Positions 1,819-37,161 of a DNA stretch of 37,835 nucleotides are shown here, in pieces. The notes below the pieces were generated by a model. That model was not told where the DNA came from, ran no database searches, and was given only the letters and a program-made list of their open reading frames with translations. The DNA is from an uncultured Verrucomicrobiota bacterium (lineage in GTDB: Bacteria > Verrucomicrobiota > Verrucomicrobiia > Limisphaerales > JADLHS01). Positions within the stretch are counted from its first letter, which is position 1. Every line of letters starts with the position of its first letter. The position numbers and the translations under genes were made by a program. The stretch is from the NCBI GenBank assembly GCA_903828255.1, contig CAIKLQ010000929.1, positions 1 through 37,835 of the forward strand. The letters run 5' to 3'.

Positions 1819-1904
1819 AGCGAGTTAAGGTTTTTGTTTCAAACTACGCTGGAAGAAATAGCCCTGCCGGTTGCGGAAATCAACTCGAATTCTTGGGGGC
1901 GAGG

Positions 1905-1986
1905 GTTCAGTATTGAGTGTTCAGCGTTCAGTGGGCGACCGGGAACGGAGTTGCGATTCTGAAAACTGAATCTGAATCCTGAATAC
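1905..1986. repeat. Word-type imperfect inverted repeat (TTCAG/CTGAA words) ending at the tatD start
   Basis: Arm 1 GTTCAGTATTGAGTGTTCAGCGTTCAG, arm 2 CTGAAAACTGAATCTGAATCCTGAATAC. Confidence 0.65.
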
Positions 1987-1991
1987 TTTTC

Positions 1992-8526: not shown

Positions 8527-8606
8527 TGGAGTAGTGGATTGATGGGGGAACTCCGCGTTTTCAACCCTCCAAAATCCATCATCCAGTAATCCACCCTTTC
8601 CCCTCC
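8510..8606. repeat. Word-type imperfect hairpin spanning the gfo stop to nagB spacer (GGATTGATGG words)
   Basis: GGGAGGGAAGGGATTGATGGAGTAGTGGATTGATGGGGG versus reverse complement GGAGGGGAAAGGGTGGATTACTGGATGATGGATTTTGGAGGG. Confidence 0.65.
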
Positions 8607-8627
8607 GTCACTTCAGTTTTCGCTCCT

Positions 8628-14472: not shown

Positions 14473-14523
14473 GTAAAATCGTGATGCGTGATGCGTGAGT
14501 CCGGGTTGGGAGGGGATGGCAAA

Positions 14524-17867: not shown

Positions 17868-18677
17868 CTACGCCGCGGTCCCCGCCATCCAAACCAGCCG
17901 CAACCCTTCCAGCGTCAAATTCGGTGCGACGGCCGAAATCTCCGGCAGCCGGGCCGCGATCAGCTTCGCGTAACTGCCGGTGGCCACGACCGGCAAACGC
18001 GGTGACTTGAGTTCGTGCTTCAACTCGGCGATCAACTCGCGCACGAGGCCGCGATAACCATGCACGGCCCCGATCAGCATCGCCTGTTCAGTGGACTTGC
18101 CGATGGCGGAATTCACGGCGCGAATTTTGATGCGCGGGAGCAGCGCCGTTTTCTCGTGCAGATAATCCGTCATCGCTGCCAGTCCGGGCGCGATGACCCC
18201 GCCCACATAATTGCCGCACTGGTCCACCACGTCGAAAGTCACCGCCGTGCCGAAATCCACCACCACCACCGGCGTGCCAAAGCGATGCCGCGCCGCCACC
18301 GCGTTCGCCAGCCGATCCGGACCGATCGTGTCCGGCTTGGGATAATCAATTCCTACTCCGCGCAATGTTTTGGGTGTGAGTTCCAGCGGAGCGCGGAGCT
18401 CTAGCTCGGCGCGTTGGTGAGGCTTGTTCCGCGTCGGGCCGGGGCCCAGCGTTCCGAGTTCCGCAATGGCCTGACGCACGAGCGGGGTAATGTCCGGCAC
18501 CACGCTGCAAAGCGCCACGCCGTCCAGCTTCGCTGCGGCGACAAATTTCCGCACGCAAGCGGTCGCTGTTCCGTCGAGCCACGCGGCGGTGGGAACGTCG
18601 GTTTGTTTCACCACGCGCCGCCCATTCGCCAGCCCGAGGTGCGTATTCGTGTTGCCGATGTCGAAAAGCAAAATCAT
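17868..18677 (-). CDS. coaX: Type III pantothenate kinase
   Basis: MILLFDIGNTNTHLGLANG, GVGIDYPKPDTIGPDRLANAVAARH, VVVDFGTAVTFDVVDQCGNYVGGVIAPGL. Confidence 0.93.
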   Translation of the reverse strand: MILLFDIGNTNTHLGLANGRRVVKQTDVPTAAWLDGTATACVRKFVAAAKLDGVALCSVVPDITPLVRQAIAELGTLGPGPTRNKPHQRAELELRAPLELTPKTLRGVGIDYPKPDTIGPDRLANAVAARHRFGTPVVVVDFGTAVTFDVVDQCGNYVGGVIAPGLAAMTDYLHEKTALLPRIKIRAVNSAIGKSTEQAMLIGAVHGYRGLVRELIAELKHELKSPRLPVVATGSYAKLIAARLPEISAVAPNLTLEGLRLVWMAGTAA

Positions 18678-18680
18678 TGG

Positions 18681-18792
18681 GTAAATGACGAATGATAATT
18701 GACGCAGGGTGGAATCCAGAGCCAAAGGCAAGTTCCTTCGCCAGTTACCCGCCCGAAATGCAATTCGTGATTCGTCATTCGCAATTTCATTT
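18681..18792. repeat. Word-type imperfect hairpin filling the birA-coaX spacer (ATGACGAAT/AATTG words)
   Basis: Arm 1 GTAAATGACGAATGATAATTGACG; arm 2 AAATGCAATTCGTGATTCGTCATTCGCAATTTCATTT overlaps the birA stop codon. Confidence 0.6.
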
Positions 18793-30272: not shown

Positions 30273-30342
30273 GTTGGAGTTCAAGCTTTAGCTTGTCGCG
30301 GGAAGATGGTTTTGTGGAACGATCTGAAGCTTGAACTCCAAC
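30273..30342 (+). repeat. 19-bp-arm hairpin immediately after the mnmE stop
   Basis: GTTGGAGTTCAAGCTTTAG ... CTGAAGCTTGAACTCCAAC; 18 Watson-Crick plus one U-G pair on + strand RNA. Confidence 0.8.
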
Positions 30343-30343
30343 G

Positions 30344-30375
30344 AAAAAACGCCCCGAGCCGAAGCCCGGGGCGTT
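30344..30375 (-). terminator. Rho-independent terminator for the mre-rod-rng operon
   Basis: Minus strand AACGCCCCGGGC-TTCG-GCTCGGGGCGTTTTTT: 12-bp stem, UUCG tetraloop and T-tract, just after the rng stop. Confidence 0.92.
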
Positions 30376-30393
30376 GGATATTTCAAACCGATC

Positions 30394-32368: not shown

Positions 32369-33583
32369 TTAGTATCCTCTTCGATTCAGGTGAATGTTTT
32401 GTAACCAGCCCATGGCGATCAACGAGCCTAGCACTGAAGACCCGCCGTAAGATAACAGCGGCAGTGGCACGCCCGTCACAGGCATTAACCGGATGTTCAT
32501 GCCGATATTGATGAACACGTGACTGAACAGGAGCGTGACTACGCCCACCGCCAGCACTTTCCCCAGGCGATCGCGCGCCTGGCCGGCGATCCTCAGTCCG
32601 GTGAAGAGGACCACCGCATACAGCGTGAGCACCGCCACGCTGCCAACGAACCCCTTCTCCTCGGCAATGACAGAGAATATGAAGTCGTTGTGCGCCACAG
32701 AACGGGGCAGGAAACCCAGAGACTTCTGGGTGCCTTCGCCCCAACCTTTCCCGGTCAGGCCTCCGGAGCCGACCGAGATCAACGCCTGCCGGACGTTCAT
32801 GGAATCGTCCATTTGTTTTAGCCGCAGGCGTTTCAGCTCCTCCTTCGTGGCATTGGGCGGAGCAAAATTGGTGTAGTCGCGACCGAAATAAACCAGCAAG
32901 CGGTCGCGTTGATAGGAATGAAGGGGAATTCGCCAGTGGTCATTCTTCACAAACAAAATGTTCGCGAGACACAAGGCGGCCACCACCCCGCCCAGGCCGA
33001 GCAAGCGCAACAGATACTTTCGCGGCGTGCCGGCGACAAACATCATGGCAAAGCCCGTCGGGACCAGCACGAGCGCCGAACCGAGATCGGGTTCTTTCAT
33101 GATGAGCAGAAACGGCAGCACCAGCATCCCGAGCGGTTTCCAGAAATTGATGCCGAGGCGCAGTTCGTCGGCAGGACGGCTGAGAAAACTGCCGAGCGCC
33201 AAAATGAAACCGAGCTTGGCGAACTCCGACGGTTGCAGGCTGAAGAATCCCAAATCAAACCAGCGGCGCGCGTTGTATCGCACCGTGCCGAACAGGAGCA
33301 CCAGCACCAGCAGCACGATCGTTACCCAGTAAATCACAAACGCCCAGCGCGTGATGGTGTGGTAGTCCACAAAGCAGAGCGCCGCCGCCGCCCCCAAGCC
33401 ACAGCTATACCAGAAAGCCTGTCGCAACCAGAGTTGCTTGAGCGCTGGCACGAGGGCGGCGGATTCGCTCGCGAATGTGGCGCTGTGAACGAACGCGATC
33501 CCCATGAGCATCAGGCCCCCGATGGCGACTATCTGCAACCGATCCAGCCGGGGCGCGTTTTCGTTGAGGTTGACGGCGTTCAT
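32369..33583 (-). CDS. rodA: Rod shape-determining protein RodA (FtsW/RodA/SpoVE family)
   Basis: Polytopic SEDS protein: NARRWFDLGFFSLQPSEFAKLGFILALGSFL, LVLVPTGFAMMFVAGTPRKYL, VPLPLLSYGGSSVLGSLIAMGWLQNI; start at MNAVNLNENAP, ATGA overlap with mrdA. Confidence 0.93.
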   Translation of the reverse strand: MNAVNLNENAPRLDRLQIVAIGGLMLMGIAFVHSATFASESAALVPALKQLWLRQAFWYSCGLGAAAALCFVDYHTITRWAFVIYWVTIVLLVLVLLFGTVRYNARRWFDLGFFSLQPSEFAKLGFILALGSFLSRPADELRLGINFWKPLGMLVLPFLLIMKEPDLGSALVLVPTGFAMMFVAGTPRKYLLRLLGLGGVVAALCLANILFVKNDHWRIPLHSYQRDRLLVYFGRDYTNFAPPNATKEELKRLRLKQMDDSMNVRQALISVGSGGLTGKGWGEGTQKSLGFLPRSVAHNDFIFSVIAEEKGFVGSVAVLTLYAVVLFTGLRIAGQARDRLGKVLAVGVVTLLFSHVFINIGMNIRLMPVTGVPLPLLSYGGSSVLGSLIAMGWLQNIHLNRRGY

Positions 33584-35598
33584 TGCGTGGAGGTCAACGC
33601 GGGGCGACCGCCGCCGGGTTGGCCCAAGTTGAAAAGCTCCTGGTAAATCTCGCGCGCAACCGGCGCGCAAGTGCCGCCGCCTGACGCGCCATCTTCGACC
33701 ATGACCACCACGGCGTAGCGCGCTGGCGCCTCGTAGGGCGCAAAGGAAATAAACCAGGTGGTGTTGTGCTTCGTGCCATGCACCATGCGGGCCGCCGTGC
33801 CGGTCTTGCCGCAGATGCGCAAGCCTTCGACGCGTGCATGTTTGCCCGTGCCTTCATTCACATCCTCGGTTTCGGCCACCATCGCGTCGCGCAAGGTTTG
33901 CAGATGGCGCGGGTTGACGCCCAGATGGTCGCGCACCCGGCTGGCGGGAAAAAGCGTCGGCGCCTCGGTGCTCATCGAATCCTGCGGTTCCAGCCGGCTG
34001 ACGAGTCGAGGCCACAAAACTTTTCCGCCGTTGGCGAGCGCGCTGGTGAGCACCGCCATTTGCAGCGGCGTCACGTCCACTTTGCCCTGACCGATGCTGA
34101 TGAGGGCGGTATCGCCTCCCTTCCAGCCTGCTCGGAGAGTTGCGGTATCGGGGAAGTGGCCGGTGCCTTCCTGCCGCAATGGAAGTTCGGTCGGTTCGCC
34201 GAGGTGCAAGCGATGGGCGAGCTCCACCACCCGCGGAAAAACTCCCGGACGCAAGCCGGTGTGAATGAAATAGGAGTTGCTGGAACGCACGATGGCGCGG
34301 CGCAAGTCGTACGGGCCGGCGTCAGCGGTGTCGCGGAACTTCTGGTTGCCGACGAAATACGCGCCTTTCGGCGCCGCCGCGGGATCGGGTTCGACCTGAA
34401 AGGTTTCATGCGGGTTCAAGCCGTTTTCCAACGCGGCGAGCGCGACCACGGTTTTGAAGGTCGAGCCGGGCTGATACACCTCGCGCGTGGCGCGATTTTT
34501 CTGCAAGCCGGAGGTTTCATCCGTCCATTTTGCGTATTCGCCCGGCGGAAATCCCGTGATGAAATAACTCGGGTCAGATGCCGGGGAGGAAGCGAGCGCC
34601 AGGATGTCGCCCGACTCGACTTCCATGACGACCGCCGCGCCGAAACGTCCCGGGCCGATTTTCTGGCGCAACGCCACTTCAGCCCGGCGTTGAATCCTCA
34701 GATCCAAAGTGAGCACGACGTTGTGGCCAGCTTCGGCAGGGCTGGTGATGCTTTCCGTTTGGCGGTAGCCACGGTTGTTGACGATCACCGATTTCGTGCC
34801 GGCTCGTCCGCAGAGATCTTCATCGAACCCGGCTTCGATCCCTACGACGCCGCGAAAATCCGGCAGGCGATAGGAAAACGTCGCGTCTTCACCGTCCGAG
34901 AAACGATCGTCGTCGCGTCGCAAGTAACCGAGCACGTGCGCCGCCGTGTTGCTGAAGGGATAGTAGCGCGTGGACTGGATTTCCAAGTCGGCGGCGATGT
35001 TGCCGGAGAGCTTCTCTTGAAAGCGAGCCATGTCCGTCATGGAAGCGTTCTTGAGGATTGGGTAGGGCAGGGCGAGGCGGTTGGTGTAGTGGCGGATGAA
35101 GTCATTCGTGTCAAACGGCAACCGGGGCAGGTCCAGGCCGCGCGCGAGTTCCTGGACCAGGTTGTTCATGACCGAGAAGCGAGCCTGCCATTCGATGGGG
35201 CGGTATTCTTCGGGCTTGAGCTTGACGGGTTTTACTGAGGCGCTCAAACCGAGCCAGCGCTTCCAGAAGGGCGCCGCAGTGGCCACGGTGTTGGTGGGCC
35301 GGATGCGCAGGTATTCCTTCTTGAACGAGTCGCTCAAGTCTTCGAGATAAACGCTGATGTTGAACTTGGCGCGGTTTTCGGCGAGCACCGCGCCGTTCCG
35401 GTCTAGAATTTTCCCGCGCACGGACGGCAAGCGCAGGGTGCGGGAGGATTGCGTTTCCGAACTCGTGCGGTAGTCACGGGCACGGACCACTTGCACCCAC
35501 CACAACCCCGCCGACAACAGCGCCAGCCCGGAAAAAATGACGATCGCCAGCAACTGGAGTTGCGCGTCGTTCTTTTTCAGTTGGTCGAAAACGAGCAT
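33580..35598 (-). CDS. mrdA: Penicillin-binding protein 2 (peptidoglycan DD-transpeptidase)
   Basis: NRGYRQTESITSPAEAGHNVVLTLD, QPGSTFKTVVALAALE, RSSNSYFIHTGLRPG, CGKTGTAARMVHGTKHNTTWFISFAPYEAPARYAVVVMVEDG. Confidence 0.93.
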   Translation of the reverse strand: MLVFDQLKKNDAQLQLLAIVIFSGLALLSAGLWWVQVVRARDYRTSSETQSSRTLRLPSVRGKILDRNGAVLAENRAKFNISVYLEDLSDSFKKEYLRIRPTNTVATAAPFWKRWLGLSASVKPVKLKPEEYRPIEWQARFSVMNNLVQELARGLDLPRLPFDTNDFIRHYTNRLALPYPILKNASMTDMARFQEKLSGNIAADLEIQSTRYYPFSNTAAHVLGYLRRDDDRFSDGEDATFSYRLPDFRGVVGIEAGFDEDLCGRAGTKSVIVNNRGYRQTESITSPAEAGHNVVLTLDLRIQRRAEVALRQKIGPGRFGAAVVMEVESGDILALASSPASDPSYFITGFPPGEYAKWTDETSGLQKNRATREVYQPGSTFKTVVALAALENGLNPHETFQVEPDPAAAPKGAYFVGNQKFRDTADAGPYDLRRAIVRSSNSYFIHTGLRPGVFPRVVELAHRLHLGEPTELPLRQEGTGHFPDTATLRAGWKGGDTALISIGQGKVDVTPLQMAVLTSALANGGKVLWPRLVSRLEPQDSMSTEAPTLFPASRVRDHLGVNPRHLQTLRDAMVAETEDVNEGTGKHARVEGLRICGKTGTAARMVHGTKHNTTWFISFAPYEAPARYAVVVMVEDGASGGGTCAPVAREIYQELFNLGQPGGGRPALTSTQ

Positions 35599-35599
35599 G

Positions 35600-35690
35600 T
35601 CAGTCGCGGGACTGGTGTCTGGAGTGTAAAGTCGTGAGCGCGCCGAACCGGTTCAGCGACTCCAGACTCCAGGCTTTAGGCTTTAGACTC
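35600..35690. repeat. Word-type imperfect hairpin filling the mreD-mrdA spacer
   Basis: Arm 1 CAGTCGCGGGACTGGTGTCTGGAGTGTAAAGTCG; arm 2 CGACTCCAGACTCCAGGCTTTAGGCTTTAGACTC. Confidence 0.7.
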
Positions 35691-35693
35691 ATT

Positions 35694-36245
35694 TTATTTT
35701 CTTCCGCGCCTGATTTCCCGGTCCTGGCGAAAACTAGTTTCGGTTACGCGGCGATAGCTGAGGGTTTGGTCGCACCAGTCGAACCCCAAAAAGAAGATCG
35801 GTGTAGCGAGCCCGCCGCCGAGGCTCATTACGAGCCATTGCCAAAGCGAACCCCAGCCGAGCAGGGGGGAATGACCGCCGGTGAGCAGGAGCAAAACCGT
35901 CAGCAGTGGTGCGACGGCGCTGGCGGCAAAGCCCAGCACAAATTGCGCGTAAGGTTGATCGCGCAGGATCAAATCCCGCCGAAGATAAATCGCAAAGCCG
36001 ACGGCGAACAATGGCAGCAGGCTTACGCCGAACGGATTGGCCGAAAGCGAATCGAAGCACAGTCCGCCCCACACGGCCAGCAGCACGATCAGGGAAGGTC
36101 CTCCCCGCAGGCTGGCATAAACCATCAAAGCCGGAAGCAAGTCTATCTCGGTCTTGAGCCACTGCGAAGTGCCCGGAAACGCGGCAGCCCAGAACACCGC
36201 GAGGAAGGCGGCGAGCAAAACCAACATGGTGCGCATGGGGGTCAT
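35694..36245 (-). CDS. mreD: Rod shape-determining protein MreD-like membrane protein
   Basis: 183-aa polytopic protein between mreC and mrdA; VLLAAFLAVFWAAAFPGTSQWLKTEIDLLPALMVYASLRGG. Confidence 0.8.
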   Translation of the reverse strand: MTPMRTMLVLLAAFLAVFWAAAFPGTSQWLKTEIDLLPALMVYASLRGGPSLIVLLAVWGGLCFDSLSANPFGVSLLPLFAVGFAIYLRRDLILRDQPYAQFVLGFAASAVAPLLTVLLLLTGGHSPLLGWGSLWQWLVMSLGGGLATPIFFLGFDWCDQTLSYRRVTETSFRQDREIRRGRK

Positions 36246-36248
36246 AAC

Positions 36249-36350
36249 GGTCTGGAGTCCGCAGTCTCGCGGCTAAAGTCCTGCGTTCGCACAGCCACTC
36301 GATGGTCAAGCATGTGAACTTCAGGCTTTAGACTCCAGACGCGAGACTCT
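36249..36350. repeat. Word-type imperfect hairpin filling the mreC-mreD spacer, same word set as 35600-35690
   Basis: CGGTCTGGAGTCCGCAGTCTCGCGGCTAAAGTCC ... TTCAGGCTTTAGACTCCAGACGCGAGACTC. Confidence 0.7.
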
Positions 36351-36351
36351 T

Positions 36352-37161
36352 TCATGGCAGGATCACCCATACTTCCTCAAGTCCGGAGAGGTTGGCGCTG
36401 AGTTTGACGCGTGCTTCGGTGTAGAGCCCAAATTCCGCCGGGCGTGAATCCACGATCCGGCCGATGGGAATGCCCTTGGGGAAGATTCCGCCGTCCCCGC
36501 TGGTCACGACTTCATGGCCCGGCTTGAGGTTCGCACGGGATGGGAGAAAGCTCATTGCCACCAGGGAACTGTCGAATGGCCCGCCCGTCCCGACGATGCC
36601 AGCGTCGCGGGTCTCGTTTTGCACGCGCGCCGCGACGTTGCATTTGGGGTCGCCAACGAGCACCACCTGGGAGTGGTCAAAACTCACCGAGTTAATGCGG
36701 CCAACCAAACCTTCTGCCGTCAGCACGGGACGGTTCGTGGTGATGCCGTCACCACTGCCGAGGTCAATCTGTACGGTGCGCCACCAGTTGGCCGGATCGC
36801 GCATCACGACGTGGGCGAACCTTAGCTTCCATTGGGGACGACTTTTCTGCCAGCCGATGAGTTGACGAAGCCGGTCGTTCTCGCGGGCGAGTTCGGTATC
36901 TTGGAGGCTTAGGATGCGGAGTTGTTGGTTCTCACGTCGGAGAGCCTCGTTCAGCCTTTCCAGTTCGCGGCGCGGGACGAGGGTATCGCTGGCCTTGGCG
37001 ACCGCTTGCTGCGAAGCGCCGACCAACCCGAAGAGCGGGAGAAAAAGACTGCCGAAAGCGAGCTTGAGACGCGCCGCCGTCCGGCCCGGCAAGTTGAAAA
37101 CAACCAGTGCGAGCAAGGCCACCAAACCCAGAGTTATGTAATGCGAACGTTTTAACATCAC
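36352..37161 (-). CDS. mreC: Rod shape-determining protein MreC
   Basis: Single TM, coiled coil ELERLNEALRRENQQLRILSLQDTELARENDRLRQLI, then VVMRDPANWWRTVQIDLGSGDGITTNRPVLTAEGLVGRI. Confidence 0.93.
   Translation of the reverse strand: MMLKRSHYITLGLVALLALVVFNLPGRTAARLKLAFGSLFLPLFGLVGASQQAVAKASDTLVPRRELERLNEALRRENQQLRILSLQDTELARENDRLRQLIGWQKSRPQWKLRFAHVVMRDPANWWRTVQIDLGSGDGITTNRPVLTAEGLVGRINSVSFDHSQVVLVGDPKCNVAARVQNETRDAGIVGTGGPFDSSLVAMSFLPSRANLKPGHEVVTSGDGGIFPKGIPIGRIVDSRPAEFGLYTEARVKLSANLSGLEEVWVILP

Follow-up and report, generated by a model that had tools for sequence, protein, structure and literature searches.

The two spacers that separate mreC from mreD and mreD from pbp2 (mrdA) in the window, the stretch of 37,835 nucleotides of an uncultured Verrucomicrobiota bacterium analysed here, are built of heptamer words repeated in tandem and then repeated again in inverted form, and each of them holds an open frame running from the stop codon of the upstream gene to the start codon of the downstream gene. 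Inverted arrays are present or absent at the orthologous junctions of related genomes, their words are replaced from one lineage to another, and bridging frames occur in such inserts in excess over shuffled sequences. The reading preferred here, to which a probability of about 0.6 is given on the grounds of sequence comparison, is that arrays of inverted heptamers originate at junctions where genes overlap and survive where the coupling of termination and reinitiation is kept.

The operon lies on the minus strand in the order mreB-mreC-mreD-pbp2(mrdA)-rodA-RNase E/G, and its gene calls hold, as profile matches showed (Table 1). The RNase E/G shares 54-63% identity with those of three genomes that are named as Verrucomicrobiota or belong to groups placed in that phylum here, and no more than 42% with those of other phyla, which points to a member of the Verrucomicrobiota. 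On the mRNA strand both mre spacers start with a run of degenerate TCTRRAG words (TCTGGAG, TCTAAAG and CCTGAAG, with TCGCGTC in register), pass through a loop and end with the inverted form, the common family being degenerate TCTRRAG/CTYYAGA. Since the partner of each array is the same family inverted past the loop, a hairpin can form in the transcript.

Table 1. Genes, array spacers and bridge frames of the window
Feature	Positions	Strand	Description
mreC	36352..37161	-	TIGR00219, PF04085
mreD	35694..36245	-	TIGR03426, 8.8e-08, just below cut-off; also position and presence in relatives
pbp2 / mrdA	33580..35598	-	TIGR03423, PF00905
mreC-mreD spacer	36246..36351	-	106 nt; two inverted TCTRRAG-type heptamer arrays with a 36-nt loop between them
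mreC-mreD spacer, 5' arm	36317..36351	-	five heptamers as read in the sequence: AAGAGTC TCGCGTC TGGAGTC TAAAGCC TGAAGTT
mreC-mreD spacer, 3' arm	36246..36280	-	five inverted heptamers as read in the sequence: GACTTTA GCCGCGA GACTGCG GACTCCA GACCGTT
mreD-pbp2 (mrdA) spacer	35599..35693	-	95 nt; inverted arrays of the same TCTRRAG heptamer family as in mreC-mreD
bridge ORF, mreC-mreD	36242..36355	-	37 codons (MKESRVWSLKPEVHMLDHRVAVRTQDFSRETADSRPL); ATGA overlaps with mreC stop and mreD start
bridge ORF, mreD-pbp2	35600..35692	-	30 codons (MSLKPKAWSLESLNRFGALTTLHSRHQSRD)
birA-coaX spacer	18678..18786	-	inverted GAATGAC-type heptamer arrays; periodic and inverted, p about 0.01
bridge ORF, birA-coaX	18674..18790	-	38 codons; ATGA overlap on both sides
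spacer	8527..8627	+	inverted TGGATTGA / ATCCATC-type words (ATCCATC/TGGATTG); inverted p 0.02, periodic p 0.07
divergent spacer	1819..1991	.	inverted TTCAGT-type 7/8-mers
short spacer	14473..14523	-	single CGCATCA array, without inverted partner; period p 0.01

Compared with dinucleotide shuffles, the fold of the mreC-mreD spacer had a z-score of -3.13 and, on repeat, of -3.77, and that of the mreD-pbp2 spacer of -2.16 and, on repeat, of -2.31. Against the same type of shuffles inverted 5-mers were in excess in the mreC-mreD spacer (p 0.015), and the mreD-pbp2 spacer showed both a period of 7 and inverted 5-mers (p 0.005 each). Single words are weak when taken alone within the window (7 matches against 3.85 expected), and the signal in the mre spacers is the array rather than the individual words. 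The original prediction, that both spacers are hairpin-forming inverted repeats, was thus confirmed, their self-complementarity not being reproduced by the shuffled control. Its description of the spacers as permuted words was correct in that the order differs between the arms and between the two spacers, and is to be amended in that the words are variants of one heptamer forming two inverted arrays. The arms do extend from the upstream stop to the downstream start codon, as had been observed, and they do so because the two genes are joined by the spacer as an open frame; that each mre spacer is a complete open frame had been missed.

At the end of mreC the sequence CCATGA supplies the start of the bridge frame, and the same position is the mreD start in relatives that have no gap. 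The bridge ORF between mreD and pbp2 opens 1 nt past the mreD stop and closes with a TGA 1 nt ahead of the pbp2 ATG. In each mre spacer the sole word with TRR in frame reads TGG, the only TRR that is not a stop codon. The sequence itself has the layout of a coupled junction: the upstream stop carries a start codon, the frame that follows is open, and it closes where the downstream gene starts.

MreD was found in 26 of the 28 genomes searched, and more than half of 25 mreD loci have a 4-nt overlap of mreC with mreD; in many relatives the spacer is missing from the mre junction and just the ATGA overlap is present, and the distance between mreD and pbp2 is often 1-7 nt only. The sister species G001 lacks the gap at both mre junctions. 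Where gaps are present they are mostly of 90-160 nt, and the majority consist again of two inverted arrays made of other words: AAAGGCT and GAATGAC in G004, TTCAACA in G003, AAAGYCC in G008, AGTCCAC in G002, and GTTGCATG and TTGGAGTG in G016. Clear arrays were absent from the mre-junction gaps of G017, G006 and G005. The birA-coaX junction repeats this picture, with a 4-nt overlap in four relatives, AAAAGGC arrays in G013 and GGAGT 8-mers in G004. Both the source genome (G000) and its sister G001 carry GAATGAC arrays there with unequal unit numbers (109 and 115 nt), the lengths differing by 6 and both frames being open and in register; the units have thus changed while the frame was kept, which makes this junction a good site for the study of array turnover.

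The periodicity was summed as exact 5-mer repeats over 22 spacers picked by position at the three junctions mreC-mreD, mreD-pbp2 and birA-coaX. Repeats at a distance of 7 numbered 121 against 3.5 expected, at 8 they were 39 against 3.9, and at 14 they were 74 against 3.7; there were none at a distance of 6 (3.9 expected) and 7 at a distance of 9 (3.5 expected).

A bridge frame was present in 19 of the 26 inserts of 30-300 nt found at the three position-chosen junctions, compared with a mean of 3.7 and a maximum of 9 in 1000 trials with shuffled inserts, and with a mean of 6.0 and a maximum of 12 when the first 6 nt were kept; as the 26 inserts stem from related genomes and are not fully independent, the p-values from these shuffles overstate the evidence. 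Some bridging inserts are without clear arrays, namely those at birA-coaX in G002 (L356; 286 nt, 97 codons) and at mreD-pbp2 in G005 (L211; 232 nt, 78 codons), and array inserts without a bridge occur at birA-coaX in G004, G008, G010 and G013. The mreD-pbp2 insert of G004, which was scored as non-bridging, contains two chained mini-ORFs overlapping by ATGA with each other and with the pbp2 start.

Among sampled spacers of 70-140 nt, a count which pools source-genome contigs picked for holding the word with others, bridges were found in 11 of 23 arrays and in 15 of 121 other spacers (p 3e-4), and the same 23 array spacers when reverse-complemented gave 3. An ATGA at the left edge was seen in 10/33 array spacers versus 24/179 others (p 0.02). 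Spacers with this left edge had a bridge in 8/10 arrays and 13/27 others (p 0.085); since the two groups are not significantly different, bridging seems to belong to the junction and not to the repeat. Runs of TCTRRAG, in a small sample of 14, were open in 10 cases against 9.5 expected from permutation of the word order, and a hand count of intergenic co-directional runs, which is suggestive only, gave an open frame in 7/7 on the sense and 0/3 on the antisense strand. The starts were taken from homology and from a caller of our own, and a part of the bridges could therefore be small genes or gene starts called wrongly.

The source assembly is fragmented (8.9 Mb, 1053 contigs, 6.33% contamination), and the genome-wide counts are based on pattern searches and contig samples in draft assemblies, with genes in the samples called by a simple codon-based caller. 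The pattern TCTRRAGTCTRRAGTC, which describes TCTRRAG arrays, matched 16 times in the source assembly versus once for the reversed control. Of 12 genomes searched from its own family, the source among them, 10 had such arrays, compared with 1 of the 45 searched from other families in the order. A 14-base word scanned across genome contigs gave apparent chance matches in unrelated taxa. The families of the source genome are TCTRRAG, CGTGATG, GTGTTGC, TTCAGT and GAATGAC; those of G016 are the 8-mers GGAGTNWT and GTTGMATG. Arrays of GGAGTNWT occur in 26/146 genomes of the order, with 0 control matches in every genome, the highest count being 159 in G016 against 0 in the control. The word families are genome-wide and are replaced between lineages.

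When a spacer was counted as an array if it was periodic (7/8) and inverted, each with p <= 0.05, arrays made up 6 of the 43 co-directional spacers of the source genome on sampled contigs not picked for the word, 5/53 in G004 and 7/57 in G016, and only 1/91 in samples of four other genomes. In the sampled DNA the array spacers peak at 85-120 nt and are commoner between co-directional genes than between convergent or divergent ones.

Most spacers of the window are without arrays, and those that have them outside the mre operon use other families (GAATGAC, ATCCATC/TGGATTG, TTCAGT and CGCATCA), as the original prediction had stated; a bridge ORF was looked for in the spacer 8527..8627 and none was found. 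The idea of a spacer-filling, hairpin-forming class of short words that differs between spacers is likewise supported, and the comparison of orthologous spacers showed that these, where present, are mostly of the same design. The word sets are not locus-specific, as had been supposed: each genome has a few 7/8-mer families, and each family is dispersed across many loci.

Several other loci may be recorded here. The convergent spacer 30273-30393 of the window contains two strong stem-loops (GTTGGAGTTCAAGCTT... and CGCCCCGAGCC...) and no tandem words; these are probably ordinary terminators. In the spacer L138:12849-12981 a TCTRRAG array stands before an inverted GTGTTGC/GCAACCC element, both within one 48-codon bridge frame, and the element bears an edge, GCGTCAAG, that recurs in L133 and L190. 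Very long 8-mer arrays of GGAGTGAT/GGAGTGTT were found at G016:C19:42227-42404 and G134:C286:15761-15852 and are candidates for recent expansion. A spacer of G021 (L250:17813-18020) holds a putative small signal recognition particle RNA (CAGGGCCGGAAGGCAGCAACGGTA) and then GATTTGC-type arrays.

According to the preferred reading, the ancestral junctions would have been overlaps or near-overlaps that couple translation, by ATGA between mreC and mreD and by TGACATG between mreD and pbp2, and the two mre spacers would be insertions of inverted short-tandem-repeat arrays at such junctions, grown by slippage of 7/8 nt together with inverted copying. An insert of this type would retain a start codon where the upstream gene stops and a stop codon where the downstream gene starts, with one open frame in between. 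A ribosome that finishes mreC could then re-initiate on the bridge frame, translate about 30-37 meaningless codons, stop at the mreD start and re-initiate there, and the coupling of the operon would be kept. The excess of bridging frames would be the result of selection for coupling; inserts that do not bridge would be lost, or be found where coupling does not matter. The hairpin may have a role of its own; close relatives do without it.

The hairpin might instead be the reason for the persistence of the arrays, setting stability, processing or attenuation between mreC, mreD and pbp2 in the polycistronic mRNA. This explanation, which is considered unlikely, draws on the fold z-scores, which are below -2 in 13 of the 22 position-chosen spacers, on the preference of the arrays for co-directional spacers, and on the pairing of the arms, which persists through change, because in most species both arms share one word family though the families switch between species. 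Inverted copying, however, accounts for the pairing without selection, the close relative G001 has no hairpin at the same junction, and several periodic inserts hardly fold (G010 and G011 at birA-coaX). A search for intrinsic terminators, that is a stem-loop with a T run, gave no candidate inside either mre spacer, and the Rfam covariance models gave no match, the best hit reaching 14 bits where the cut-off is 50; the terminator, promoter and Rfam readings of the mre spacers were rejected. An even less probable origin is a miniature mobile element of the REPIN/MITE type, some 100 nt long, whose ends are inverted and whose loop varies, moved in trans and landing at ATGA. The length peak, the inverted arms, the variable loops, the dispersed families, the varying presence at orthologous junctions and the more frequent left-edge ATGA would all suit such an element, and Y1 transposases are present in most of these genomes. 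Against it, no full-length consensus is conserved, just words being shared and unit numbers being variable; the words were found in the flanks of 0/14 Y1 transposase loci, which represent part of the copies; and the Y1 copy number does not track the arrays. About 30 Y1 transposase matches, many of them ending at profile position 62, were counted in G024, whose sample has almost no arrays. A duplication of the target site ATG(A) at the two ends was set aside as a candidate, as it is indistinguishable from selection for the start codon at each end.

That the frames are real small-protein genes between the mre genes is very improbable, even if they run completely from start to stop and are coupled to their neighbours. 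The peptides at the same place vary by species and track the DNA word (MKESRVWSLK, MRKAEVQRLK, MKKNERSTFNIQ, MNGFVTWSSG), and many relatives have no frame there; as the peptides are not conserved, the bridge frames are not ordinary small-protein genes. The peptide motifs encoded by the arrays are presumably familiar from annotations; they were not found in the open-licence literature searched. Chance or an assembly artefact, for which the fragmentation and contamination of the source assembly and the near-chance frequency of single words in the window could be invoked, is practically negligible in view of the period-7 repeats, at 35 times expectation across relatives, and of the genome searches with their controls (16 versus 1 in the source assembly; GGAGTNWT arrays in 26/146 genomes, control matches 0).

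The persistence of the arrays under coupling would supply a testable rule, namely that inserts at overlapping junctions are seemingly tolerated mainly when they restore the succession of starts and stops; with this rule the importance of translational coupling in uncultured bacteria could be examined on the scale of genomes. It would also describe how non-coding repeats turn into open frames and so may bring spurious or new small proteins into annotations. The pattern of intervals (7 and 8, not 6) is a handle on the mode of array growth. A wider proposal, which the sequences might suggest and which is regarded as rather doubtful, is that in one order a process hitherto unrecognised writes inverted arrays with a 7- or 8-nt step and lineage-specific words into overlapping junctions, where they would be kept as translated bridge frames doubling as hairpins. 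If this were true, many operon spacers would be built and rewritten by an array-writing process under the constraint of coupling.

The original prediction could name no described repeat class that behaves in this manner; the intergenic heptameric repeats of Xanthomonas (PMC4692102) come close. That source reports 70 and 75 inverted pairs of GGGAATC arrays in two genomes, intergenic and mostly between co-directional genes, scarce in divergent gaps, with the same gene neighbours in sister species, variable length and sequence, and no known role. The arrays described here share with them the intergenic position, the closely paired inverted arrangement, the co-directional bias and the variation between sister species. 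Tandem 7-nt intergenic units were likewise found (excess at periods 7 and 14, and at 8 too), in families dispersed beyond chance (16 versus 1; 159 versus 0 in G016). The Xanthomonas work dealt with a single G-rich, quadruplex-forming word in each genome, whereas several 7-/8-mer families without G-runs occur here; the G-runs of the Xanthomonas/Nostoc sub-type were not found in TCTRRAG, GAATGAC, TTCAACA or AAAGGCT, all of which lack GGG. Moreover, the inserts here are open frames joining overlapping genes, a bridging not mentioned for Xanthomonas in the parts of PMC4692102 consulted, nor found described in the partly accessible open-licence literature searched.

Other heptamers resemble the arrays in fewer respects. 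The STRR heptanucleotide repeats of heterocystous cyanobacteria (Vioque 1997, cited in PMC7593598) are also short, tandem and dispersed, with several families per genome, and the accessible description of them does not include the inverted pairing and stop-to-start bridging seen here; three tandem heptanucleotides of Calothrix are mentioned in PMC4692102. The TAACTGA heptamers of Beggiatoaceae (PMC4679880) are likewise intergenic arrays near start codons and patchy over taxa, but are direct repeats of a single word with one inverted case in about 170 sets. The same paper cites intergenic heptamers as the most abundant longer simple-repeat class in many bacteria, and an earlier proposal, reported in PMC4679880 and PMC4692102, is that heptamers are favoured by the DNA length contacting the polymerase.

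REPINs or REP doublets (PMC3116915, PMC3733652) have in common with the arrays an inverted pair with a variable spacer, a length of about 70-110 bp, and an extragenic, hairpin-forming and dispersed nature, and two inverted arms with a variable spacer in 70-110 nt were indeed found here. REPs are characterised by a conserved short sequence that ends in GTAG or CGTC and by the RAYT genes linked to them, whereas the arrays are tandem 7/8-mers of no fixed sequence with no linked transposase found. No conserved arm ending in GTAG/GTGG or CGTC was detected, the arms differing in units and order; no shared terminal tetranucleotide was seen by eye in the listed array spacers; and no REP-associated tyrosine transposase was linked to them in the flanks of the 14 Y1 loci, part of the copies. 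Like the palindromic elements of Rickettsia (PMC3733652), which tolerate in-frame translation, the arrays are palindromic repeats that would tolerate it; the Rickettsia elements lie within genes and have a conserved sequence, and those described here form mini-ORFs of their own in the gaps from gene to gene. The present findings extend inverted heptamer arrays from Xanthomonas and Nostoc to several families in one Verrucomicrobiota order and to many words, and the arrays of this order match the Xanthomonas design but with many words per genome, no G-runs and bridging frames.
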